Origin: Mycolicibacterium goodii
Lineage (GTDB): Bacteria; Actinomycetota; Actinomycetes; Mycobacteriales; Mycobacteriaceae
Direction of reading: 5' to 3'
NCBI RefSeq assembly: GCF_001187505.1
Contig: NZ_CP012150.1
Span: 5,552,048-5,616,047, forward strand
DNA length: 64,000 nt
This document shows, one piece after another, positions 13,956-60,792 of the stretch (the stretch's first letter is position 1; each line of letters opens with the position of its first letter). Both the position numbers and the translations under genes were made by a program. Below the pieces are notes generated by a model. The model was not told the origin of the DNA. It saw nothing but the letters and a program-made list of their open reading frames with translations, and did not search any database.

Positions 13956-13997
13956 ATGGCCGTGAAACCCCCCGATCCCGACTCCGCTGCGACTTGA
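13956..13997 (+). CDS. 13-codon leader ORF or broken original start of mmpL
   Basis: ATG 13956 has the strongest ribosome site in this part (AAGGAGA at 13944-13950) and reads MAVKPPDPDSAAT before TGA at 13995-13997. It is in the same frame as mmpL, whose first downstream ATG (14016) follows 18 bases after the stop and has no good ribosome site. The sequence is therefore either a leader peptide that feeds ribosomes to mmpL by reinitiation, or the true N-terminus of MmpL interrupted by a nonsense codon. Confidence 0.4.
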   Translation: MAVKPPDPDSAAT

Positions 13998-14015
13998 GCG
14001 CGGTCTGGACCACCG

Positions 14016-58318: not shown

Positions 58319-59074
58319 ATGAGCAGCACGGCGAGCGATATCGCGAATATGCCGCGGGGCGGCCCGGATGCCTCGCGACTCGACCGCCGCCTACAGACCG
58401 ACCGGCTTGAGTACCTGGACCGCGACGACGTCGACGAACTCAAGAGCAAGGTCGTCAACGCACTCGACCGCGGCGGCCGGCGACCGCGGCTCGGTATCTA
58501 CGGCAAGTGCGCCCAGATCGCACTCGCCGAAGTGGCCGATGTCCCCGCACCCAAGATCCTCGAGCTCGGGGCGGGTCTCGGCGGGGTGTCACGCAAGCTG
58601 CTGGAGGCCCATCCCGCTGCCGAGGTCACCGTGACGGACATCGATCCCCACTTCGTGGCCACCGTGGCAGCGGGCGATCTGGGCAGCCACCCACGCGCCA
58701 TCGTGCGCGAAATGGATGCCACCGCAATCGATTCCTCGGACAAGTCGTACGACCTGGCGGTGTTCGCATTGTCGTTGCATCACCTACCGCCCGAACTGGC
58801 GGCCCGCGTTTTCGCCGAAGGAACCCGGGTGGCGAACAAGTTGCTGATCGTCGACCTGCGCAGGCCCAGGCCACCGCTTCATCTGGTGGTGTTGGCATGC
58901 GTGCTGCCGTTCACCCGGCTGATCCCGATGGCACACGACGGATTCATCAGTTCGCTGCGCGCCTACAGTCCGTCGGCACTGCGCGCCCTGGCCCACCATG
59001 CCGACCCGACCATCACCGTCGAGTTCCGCACGCGGAGATTTGGCCCGACCGTGGCGGTCGCCCGCCGTGCCTAG
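58319..59074 (+). CDS. Class I SAM-dependent methyltransferase
   Basis: A 251-residue protein if started at ATG 58319. The frame runs upstream to 58271, but that part adds only a short unrelated tail beside the IS. Motif I is ILELGAGLGGVSR, motif II VTVTDIDPHF, then YDLAVFALSLHHLP (motif IV) and LLIVDLRRP. The last third is hydrophobic (LHLVVLACVLPFTRL), perhaps for contact with a lipid substrate. It converges on the FAAL gene with the stop codons sharing the CTAG at 59071-59074. Its place between the IS and FAAL suggests a role in the lipopeptide pathway; the substrate is unknown. Confidence 0.75.
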   Translation: MSSTASDIANMPRGGPDASRLDRRLQTDRLEYLDRDDVDELKSKVVNALDRGGRRPRLGIYGKCAQIALAEVADVPAPKILELGAGLGGVSRKLLEAHPAAEVTVTDIDPHFVATVAAGDLGSHPRAIVREMDATAIDSSDKSYDLAVFALSLHHLPPELAARVFAEGTRVANKLLIVDLRRPRPPLHLVVLACVLPFTRLIPMAHDGFISSLRAYSPSALRALAHHADPTITVEFRTRRFGPTVAVARRA

Positions 59075-60792
59075 ACGTCCAGGCGGTGGAACCCACCATC
59101 GCGATAAAGCTGGACGCACGCCGCTCGCCTGACTTTCCCGCTGGTGGTGATGGGAATCGAACCCGGTGCCACCAGCACGACATCGTGGACGCTCAAGCCG
59201 TGCAAATTGGATATCGCCGACGTGATCGCTTCGCTGCGTCTGCGGAGGTTCTCGGTCACCTCCTGCTCGGACCCGCCCCGTTTCCTGTATTCGACGATCA
59301 CGGCAAGCTTTTCGGTGTGTTCATCGGTGACGGCGATCGCCGCGGCCCGGCCGCCTGAGATCTCCGAGATGGTGGCCTCGATGTCGTCGGGGTAGTGGTT
59401 GCGCCCGCGCACGATCAGAAGATCCTTTATGCGGCCCACGATGAACAACTCACCGTCGGAGAGGAAACCGAGATCCCCGGTTCGTAACCAACCGTCGGCG
59501 GGTGTACCGGGCGACGGAGTGTTCATCGTGACGTCGAAGGTCTGCGCCGACTCGACAGGCCTGCGCCAATAACCGGGGCTGACGTTGTCGCCGTGCACCC
59601 AGATCTCACCGATCATTCCCTCCGGCTTCTCGGTGAAGGTCTCGGGATCGACGATGCGTACCGTCGGCGACTGCGGCTTGCCGTAACTCACCAATGGCGT
59701 GCCCTTTGCGCACCGCTGCGCGCGGCCTGCGGACAACTTCTCGGGCTCGAAGTGGACAACCTCAAGCGGTCCGCCCGGCGGGTGAGTGGCCACGAACAGT
59801 GTCGCCTCGGCAAGGCCGTATGAGGGGCGGATCACCGCTTCGGACAGGTTGAACCGGGCGAACCGCCGCGTGAAGCGCCCGATCGTGGCTGGGCTCACCC
59901 GTTCGGCGCCGCTGATGATGTACAGCACGTCGCCGAGGTCGAGCCCGACCATGTCGTCGTCGGACGTGCGTGCGGCCGCGAGTTCGAAGGCGAAATTGGG
60001 CGCGGCCGACAACACCTGCGGATAACGCGCCAGCAATTGCATCCACCGGGCCGGCCGCTGCAGGAATGCCATCGGAGTCATGATCACCGTCGGCCAGCCA
60101 CCCAGAATTCCCGCGCACAGGCCCAGCATCAGTCCCATGTCGTGGTAGAACGGCAGCCACGACAAGGCTGTCTGCGGCATCCGGTAATCCGGAAGATAGC
60201 CGGAGATGATCTGTTGCCAATTGGCCGACAAATTGCCGTTGGAGACCGCAACCCCGGTCGGCGTGCGAGTCGACCCCGATGTGTACTGCAGATACGCGAT
60301 ATCCGGTCGGTCCCGCGGCAGCCCACCGGACTCTCCGCTCGAATCCCGGTCGAGCGAATCGATTTCGATGATCGAGGGGGTGCGGCCGTCGGCGAATGCC
60401 CGTGCATAGGGGGCGACATGCTCCGCGACAGCCGACGTCGTGAGAAGCACCGAAGGTGCCGCGTCGCGCAGCACGGCCGTGACACGCTCATCGTGAACGG
60501 CGACCGTCGGCACCGACAGCGGTACCGCGATGAACCCGGCTTCCAATGCACCCAGAAATGCCACGACATAGTCGGGGCCCTGCGGCGCCAGTATCACCGC
60601 CCGGTCACCGGTCGATCCGCAGCGACCAAGTGCCAGTGCGAGATTCACCGAACGCCGGTACAGATGCGCCCAGGTCAGGGTTTCGGCAATACCTTCCCAA
60701 TCCTGCTCGTAATCGAGAAATGTGAACGCGGTGTCGTTGGGCTGCAGGCTCGCGCGCTCACGCAGGACGACACGAACGGAAGACTCAGTCAT
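59071..60792 (-). CDS. Fatty-acyl-AMP ligase (FAAL, FadD family)
   Basis: A 573-residue FadD of the FAAL type. FAALs make acyl-AMP from long-chain fatty acids and hand the acyl group to a PKS. Core loop YTSGSTRTPTGV (Thr instead of Lys, as in FAALs), LSWLPFYHDMGLM, SAAPNFAFEL, RPSYGLAEATLF, WLRTGDLGFL, GRIKDLLIVRGRNHYPDDIE, and ITTSGKVRR near the C-terminus. The start at ATG 60792 fits GGAGAGGGG upstream and the common MTESSVRVVLRERA opening; the longer frame to 60975 would overlap dfrA. As the only acyl-activating gene in the window, it is the likely supplier of the starter for the PKS, in the way FadD28 serves Mas. Confidence 0.9.
   Translation of the reverse strand: MTESSVRVVLRERASLQPNDTAFTFLDYEQDWEGIAETLTWAHLYRRSVNLALALGRCGSTGDRAVILAPQGPDYVVAFLGALEAGFIAVPLSVPTVAVHDERVTAVLRDAAPSVLLTTSAVAEHVAPYARAFADGRTPSIIEIDSLDRDSSGESGGLPRDRPDIAYLQYTSGSTRTPTGVAVSNGNLSANWQQIISGYLPDYRMPQTALSWLPFYHDMGLMLGLCAGILGGWPTVIMTPMAFLQRPARWMQLLARYPQVLSAAPNFAFELAAARTSDDDMVGLDLGDVLYIISGAERVSPATIGRFTRRFARFNLSEAVIRPSYGLAEATLFVATHPPGGPLEVVHFEPEKLSAGRAQRCAKGTPLVSYGKPQSPTVRIVDPETFTEKPEGMIGEIWVHGDNVSPGYWRRPVESAQTFDVTMNTPSPGTPADGWLRTGDLGFLSDGELFIVGRIKDLLIVRGRNHYPDDIEATISEISGGRAAAIAVTDEHTEKLAVIVEYRKRGGSEQEVTENLRRRSEAITSAISNLHGLSVHDVVLVAPGSIPITTSGKVRRAACVQLYRDGGFHRLDV

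Follow-up and report, generated by a model that had tools for sequence, protein, structure and literature searches.

The stretch of DNA analysed here (the window, 64,000 nucleotides) covers positions 5,552,048-5,616,047 of the single-contig, 7,105,933-base genome of Mycolicibacterium goodii (G000 in our genome set). Between 14.0 and 60.8 kb it contains a lipopeptide cluster, whose reality is confirmed here. Pfam and NCBIfam searches found every gene named in a preliminary description of this DNA where that description had placed it: an MmpL transporter, an MbtH-like protein, a polyketide synthase (PKS), two nonribosomal peptide synthetases (NRPS1 and NRPS2), two S-adenosylmethionine (SAM) methyltransferases (MT307 and MT267) and a fatty acyl-AMP ligase (FAAL) (Table 1). 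By their coordinates, the MmpL and MbtH genes are 100 bp apart, the PKS and NRPS1 genes are 15 bp apart, and NRPS1 and NRPS2 overlap by 4 bp. The gene order is not due to chance, as it is repeated in a second genome, G077. Our data point to M. goodii as the species of G077 and to M. psychrotolerans as that of a further genome, G054. The MmpL is 89% identical to its G077 counterpart, 72% to that of G054 and 54% to the MmpL of the genome's own glycopeptidolipid (GPL) region; for MbtH, the values are 89%, 82% and 78%, respectively.

Table 1. Features of the lipopeptide cluster and of its synthetases, in window coordinates.
Feature	Position	Strand	Basis or remark
MmpL-family RND transporter (probable exporter)	14016..17093	+	PF03176 1e-175; TIGR00833 above cut-off
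MbtH-like protein	17194..17415	+	PF03621 5e-29
One-module reducing PKS, MAS/Pks2 family, KS-AT-DH-ER-KR-ACP	17570..23857	+	Pfam; NF041183
NRPS1	23873..40393	+	Pfam, domain mapping, HHxxxDG and GGDS motifs
Starter condensation domain, expected N-acylation of residue 1	23873..25162	+	54% identical to starter C of own GPL synthetase
A2 ATP-binding (A3/P-loop) motif SDKGGKPKG, abnormal	28847..28873	+	Comparison with other A domains
Epimerase, module 2 (D-residue 2)	30098..31432	+	Mapping; HHLAIDG
Epimerase, module 4 (D-residue 4)	37739..39043	+	Mapping; HHLAIDG
NRPS2	40390..55581	+	Pfam/NCBIfam, domain mapping
Epimerase, module 6 (D-residue 6)	45370..46689	+	Mapping; HHLAIDA
Methyltransferase within A8, position suggesting an N-methyltransferase	52612..53589	+	PF08242 4e-14
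Terminal thioester reductase (R)	54325..55578	+	TIGR01746 324 bits, cut-off 213; GATGFLGRYL, S/T-Y-K
SAM methyltransferase MT307, linked to synthetase group	55594..56517	-	PF08241
IS110-family transposase	56896..58155	-	PF01548/PF02371
SAM methyltransferase MT267	58271..59074	+	PF13649; start may be 58319
Fatty acyl-AMP ligase (FadD/FAAL)	59071..60792	-	NF004509 918 bits, cut-off 775; start codon position

Pfam and domain mapping of NRPS1 gave the order starterC-A1-T / C-A2-T-E / C-A3-T / C-A4-T-E / C5 (C, condensation; A, adenylation; T, thiolation; E, epimerization), and NRPS2, mapped with Pfam and NCBIfam, reads A5-T / C-A6-T-E / C-A7-T / C-A8-NMT-T-R (NMT, N-methyltransferase; R, reductase). 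Between them they contain a starter C domain, seven further C domains and three E domains, along with an embedded methyltransferase and, at the end, a thioester reductase. Motif reading bears out the eight A domains described previously, four in each protein; the Pfam tally is nine AMP-binding stretches, since NRPS2 was cut inside A7. All 11 C and E domains of the window retain HHxxxD[G/A], and all eight T domains retain GGDS. The R domain, whose best solved match is 4dqv (annotated as peptide synthetase Nrp), retains GATGFLGRYL as well as the S/T, Y and K positions that we take to be catalytic, and no thioesterase family is among the Pfam matches of NRPS2. The split between C5 and A5 is the same as in the genome's own GPL synthetase. 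We rejected a frameshift between NRPS1 and NRPS2, as a C|A split is present both there and in 8/8 eight-module relatives. Domain order, epimerase positions, reductase sites and their conservation can thus be established from the sequence itself, and an eight-module lipopeptide synthetase with reductive release, a PKS and a FAAL is supported.

To predict the residues, we took the A-domain specificity positions from alignments, following what we take to be the accepted position scheme; open-access text searches turned up no paper on the A-domain codes. P0014, a PstA protein of M. abscessus, carries six A domains, and its E domains are at positions 1, 3 and 6. It probably makes residues 1-6 of the lipooctapeptide GL8P, fitting the hexamodular MAB_4691c; these residues are Thr-Ala-Phe-Ile-Tyr-Leu in the sequence set by NMR (PMC11978893). 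The code of module 4 (DVWTVVAMC) is identical to that of the Phe3 domain of P0014 and the code of module 6 (DFWTLGAVY) to that of its Leu6 domain, both at 9/9 positions. Module 3 agrees with Leu6 at 8/9 positions and module 1 with Tyr5 at 7/9. For comparison, the Thr code of the genome's own GPL synthetase matches the GL8P Thr code at 7/9 positions, and its two Ala codes match at 6/9.

Modules 2, 5 and 7 have one common code, DYWSMAGVY. The M. porcinum protein P0131, with the layout A / A-NMT / A / A / A-NMT, has this code at positions 1, 3 and 4, and the N-methylated code DAFLVGAIW at positions 2 and 5. Because this layout fits the first five residues of fortuitine, which we take to be Val-MeLeu-Val-Val-MeLeu, we read DYWSMAGVY as Val. 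The predicted product is then acyl-Tyr-D-Val-Leu-D-Phe-Val-D-Leu-Val-NMe-Z-ol, where Z is the residue of module 8. P0131 and P0137 (M. boenickei), which have the same layout, are also candidate fortuitine synthetases, given that presumed structure. The GL8P code series Ala-Phe-Ile-Tyr-Leu recurs in P0010 (M. neworleansense) and P0046 (M. chelonae), and P0025 (M. fortuitum), compared by domain layout, has that of these two. Judging by these proteins, synthetases of the GL8P kind may extend to the M. fortuitum group, a broader range than the one given in PMC11978893.

E domains occur in modules 2, 4 and 6, and the C domains that follow them cluster with each other, apart from the remaining C domains. 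The predicted chirality, L-D-L-D-L-D-L-L, with the last two residues both L, is found in 9/9 eight-module synthetases of the group that were compared: those of the window, G077, M. seoulense (a pair drawn from protein clusters whose longest contigs differ), M. paraffinicum, Mycobacterium sp. SMC-2, P0098/P0181, G326, G224 and G054. In G054, several residue codes differ, yet the L/D alternation is retained, and the five-module synthetase of G283 reads L-D-L-D-L. Applied as a control to the GPL synthetase of this genome, the same reading yields D-D-D-L, in agreement with the published GPL order D-Phe-D-alloThr-D-Ala-L-alaninol (PMC3537567). Marfey analysis of GL8P showed D-alloThr, D-Phe and D-Leu (PMC11978893), matching the E domains at positions 1, 3 and 6 of P0014. 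Other reductase-ended synthetases, such as the M. avium protein P0011, are non-alternating.

The PKS scored 3685 bits against the Pks2-type model NF041183 (cut-off 2400) and matches the solved mycocerosic acid synthase (MAS) structure 9d2z end to end (2927 bits), over the full KS-AT-DH-ER-KR-ACP length. It is a member of the MAS/Pks2 family, and by analogy with that family it would use methylmalonyl-CoA iteratively and give a methyl-branched acyl chain.

The terminal reductase, with its TIGR01746 match above cut-off and its retained sites, is of the kind that ends GPL synthetases, and we predict that the product ends in an alcohol. R domains of this fold are capable of two- or four-electron release. 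It is quite unlikely that the reductase halts at the aldehyde and gives a peptide aldehyde or a derived ring, as the two-electron option would allow, given that a related R domain (63% identical) terminates the GPL synthetase of this genome and that alaninol is the terminus of GPLs (PMC3537567). Reductive release is no rarity: an R domain is present in 33 of 231 proteins, although all 231 were gathered by similarity to the cluster and the window's NRPS2 was counted twice.

Some of the relatives carry two reductases: NRPS2 reads A7-T-R-C-A8-NMT-T-R, with a second R domain between T7 and C8, in G326 (joined coordinates 34397-50995, L117-L118), G224, G080, M. seoulense P0162, M. paraffinicum P0165, SMC-2 P0168 and P0181. 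This internal arrangement was found in 4/33 R-bearing proteins. A tree built from 24 R domains places R7 and R8 of G326, G224 and G080 in one clade of six (support 100/99), and both retain their catalytic residues in these three genomes, where this was checked. We therefore rejected a reading of the internal reductase as a dead relic. As they form a single clade, R7 and R8 were probably duplicated, or homogenised by gene conversion, within the group. An open-access text search found no paper on an internal reductase in bacterial NRPSs, which is weak evidence of absence.

How does the cluster compare with known mycobacterial lipopeptides? The genome has a separate GPL locus at 1.888 Mb, whose four-module synthetase reads starterC-A-T-E/C-A-T-E/C | A-T-E/C-A-T-R; the preliminary description had likewise set GPL, with four modules, apart from this cluster. 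(Another NRPS, 7542 aa long and with six A domains, is encoded at G000:C1:1442161-1464789.) The GPL synthetases Mps1/Mps2 and those of the window are alike in their starter C domain, MbtH, terminal R domain and the gene split between a C domain and its A domain. However, Mps1/Mps2 have four modules for Phe-Thr-Ala-Ala (D-D-D-L), whereas the window has eight with other codes.

GL8P of M. abscessus (MAB_4691c/MAB_4690c) is also an acylated octapeptide made by eight modules on two NRPSs, with MbtH, MmpL and methyltransferases nearby, and its Phe and Leu codes are identical to those of the window, its Tyr code nearly so. It differs in being a rhamnosylated lipooctapeptide with 6+2 modules, E domains at 1, 3, 6 and 8, a thioesterase and glycosyltransferases (PMC11978893), compared with 4+4 modules, E domains at 2, 4 and 6, an N-methyltransferase and a reductase here; the peptides read T-A-F-I-Y-L-T-T and Y-V-L-F-V-L-V-Z, respectively. 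A Phe-containing lipooctapeptide of rough M. avium (Riviere 1996) is cited in the same paper; P0011, an R-type synthetase of M. avium, comprises six modules with a single E domain, and any relation between it and that lipid is hypothetical. We therefore rejected octapeptide length alone as a novelty, since GL8P and the M. avium lipid precede it. The preliminary description knew of no characterised mycobacterial lipopeptide with this module order, and we found none in searches of one open-access library. The isolation this implied did not hold: in addition to these two lipids and the relatives in several species, second GPL-like loci whose predicted products vary across species have been reported with a tree of 42 strains, and the window's locus may already be listed in silico in those data (PMC11978893). 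The preliminary description also made no mention of the alternating L/D order, the MAS type of the PKS, the abnormal A2 motif, the IS110 element or the relatives with two reductases.

GPL and GL8P belong to the same broad family and are both glycosylated, and the genome has its own GPL synthetase locus, so this product could also be glycosylated by glycosyltransferases encoded elsewhere, for instance at that locus. We consider this unlikely. A Pfam scan of 19 open reading frames, a part of those in the window (NRPS pieces aside), matched no glycosyltransferase family, and it contained no GPL-type glycosyltransferase or acetyltransferase genes, in line with what had been described before. The seven assigned residues also include no Thr or Ser to carry a sugar, leaving only Tyr and the terminal alcohol.

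To see how widespread the group is, we used MT307, which occurs in 23/396 genomes of the genus (E<=1e-40, the window's own included), and read the neighbourhoods in 21 of these 23, counting the window. Three genomes (G000, G077 and G054) have the eight-module line without an internal reductase, and three (G326, G224 and G080, the last with its NRPS1 cut by the contig) have an NRPS2 with one. Ten (G283, G274, G114, G028, G214, G221, G180, G048, G290 and G059) end in A-T-R without an N-methyltransferase module, though most of these are cut by contig ends. Architecture was left aside in G366 and G036, where the contig ends after T-R or R, and in G061 and G269, where MT307 lies over two contigs; in G372, MT307 is present with no NRPS match in the 60 kb read. 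G207 and G296 (L108, L109) have an MT307 of about 50% identity beside another PKS, with no NRPS match in the stretch read. MT267 was rejected as a cluster marker, as its family occurs in 280/396 genomes of the genus at E<=1e-40.

Related synthetases from named organisms are those of M. goodii (P0037/P0188, G077), M. seoulense (P0087/P0162), M. paraffinicum (P0070/P0165) and Mycobacterium sp. SMC-2 (P0091/P0168). They resemble those of the window in the same protein split, eight A domains, E domains at 2, 4 and 6, and an N-methyltransferase and R domain in module 8; those of M. seoulense, M. paraffinicum and SMC-2, like P0181, differ in the second, internal R domain after module 7. To our knowledge, no product is known for any of them. 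A search of named genomes with the methyltransferase-T-R piece of module 8, using exact peptide words, found no orthologue among 79 distinct loci (the best 80 of 107); only L009, L057, L069 and L074 held both N-methyltransferase and R matches, which lie at least 3.9 kb apart and hence in different modules.

The core PKS-NRPS1-NRPS2-MT307 is retained in G077, G054, G326 and G224. The G077 cluster has the same right neighbours as the window, folA and thyA. In G326 and G224, the core, there with MT267, lies near genes for DNA polymerase III subunits, with an isopropylmalate synthase gene (G326) or an exonuclease gene (G224) on its other side. Because these neighbours differ, and MmpL, MbtH and FAAL are absent there (none above 40% identity in the stretch read), the core is the conserved unit and is found in different chromosomal places. 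The absence of MmpL and FAAL from these two loci, and the presence of an MmpL beside a FAAL in the genome's own GPL region, would also fit a scheme in which MmpL, PKS and FAAL work on a different lipid, acyltrehalose for example, and are merely neighbours of the NRPSs. This seems very unlikely, as the PKS adjoins NRPS1 in G000, G077, G054, G326 and G224, and NRPS1 opens with a starter C domain. On the left of the window's cluster are an alpha/beta-hydrolase frame (13052-13882, fitting its family in the first part only; its G077 counterpart is a 254-aa frame), an AlkZ-like gene and a type I restriction system. The latter (601-9681) comprises hsdR, hsdS and hsdM and a YhcG-like nuclease gene; in G077, the open reading frames of the 8 kb read upstream of its hydrolase gene include no counterpart of these.

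The cluster had been called complete. All named genes are indeed present, but A2 has an abnormal P-loop and the two methyltransferase genes are separated by an IS110 element. The P-loop reads SGTTGxPKG in six of the seven other A domains of the window and SGSTGAPKG in A8, and the eight related NRPS1 proteins checked (8/8) have GTTG in all four A domains. The longest exact repeat in this region (1285 bp) joins modules 2 and 4 (27368-28652 = 34994-36278), and exact repeats of 432-441 bp occur among modules 2, 5 and 7 (joins 2/5 and 2/7). These long repeats point to gene conversion or recent module copying within the synthetase, and they leave the region prone to assembly faults. Since the A2 motif lies at their edge, its unusual form is possibly such a fault. 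The IS110-family element (56552-58270) sits in the spacer between the divergent methyltransferase genes and has three identical copies in the genome. It is absent from the spacer of G077, a short one to which both flanks align, identifying it as a later insertion between MT307 and MT267.

These two features could mean that the cluster is partly inactivated, with poor ATP binding by A2, methyltransferases disturbed by the IS110 element and little or no full product. We give this a real but minor chance: the synthetase reading frames are open, the C, E, T and R domains retain the motifs and sites described above, and the A2 motif borders repeats where an assembly fault is possible.

Considering all this, we find it likely that the product of the cluster is a hydrophobic lipooctapeptide with an alcohol end, a component of the mycobacterial envelope and a relative of the GPL and GL8P families. 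In the proposed pathway, FAAL would activate a fatty acid and hand the acyl chain to the MAS-type PKS, which would extend it, probably with methyl branches, and the starter C domain of NRPS1 would transfer it to residue 1. The eight modules, with MbtH assisting the A domains, would then build Tyr-D-Val-Leu-D-Phe-Val-D-Leu-Val-NMe-Z, and the terminal reductase would free the chain as an alcohol (or aldehyde). MT307 and MT267 may O-methylate the product, the terminal alcohol and the Tyr hydroxyl being possible sites. MmpL would export the finished lipopeptide. The lipid, the export by MmpL and the location in the envelope are all predicted from the gene content.

Several observations weigh against this pathway and product. 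The abnormal A2 P-loop may leave module 2 weak or skipped, and the IS110 element may interfere with both methyltransferase genes. Among known codes, DYWSMAGVY is nearest to Ala (6/9), and the Val call rests on a presumed fortuitine structure, for which no paper was found in the open-access library searched. The code of module 8 (DVGVAITVW) matches known codes at 3/9 positions at best, so residue Z is left without assignment. The nine alternating synthetases were selected for their relatedness and do not count as independent cases (G326 or G224 could be a strain of one of the named species), and the eight-module GL8P system, which was left out of the nine, does not alternate. Finally, the missing genes in G326 and G224 make the links of MmpL, MbtH and FAAL to the synthetases weaker.

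Linear gramicidin is a 15-residue peptide of alternating L and D hydrophobic residues, with an N-formyl group and an ethanolamine end, and is released reductively. The predicted product shares the hydrophobic residues and the reductive release, and follows the strict L/D alternation save for its last two residues; gramicidin differs in its length, its two ends, its different source organism and its lack of a fatty acid. Perhaps, then, the group makes a lipidated gramicidin-like peptide alcohol, in which the L/D-alternating Tyr, Val, Leu, Phe, Val, Leu and Val would form a beta-helix or stacked ribbons in the outer membrane and alter its permeability, with the internal reductase of the M. seoulense group freeing a heptapeptide alcohol as a second product. 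This is a long shot. Eight residues are too short to span a membrane as the 15 of linear gramicidin do, and ion channel formation by the octapeptide is, by this analogy, only a possibility.

The window's cluster is best described as an uncharacterised relative of known mycobacterial surface lipopeptides, with a product and function predicted from sequence. Mycobacterial lipopeptides shape colony type and host recognition. A second locus of this kind can matter even though its lipid is scarce, as reported for GL8P in 2025 (PMC11978893). The two-reductase relatives raise a question for enzymology: does the chain pass an intact reductase, or does it leave early? The alternating chirality would be a pattern shown by neither GPL nor GL8P, and with a calibrated prediction that includes the D positions, mass spectrometry can put this orphan locus to a direct test.

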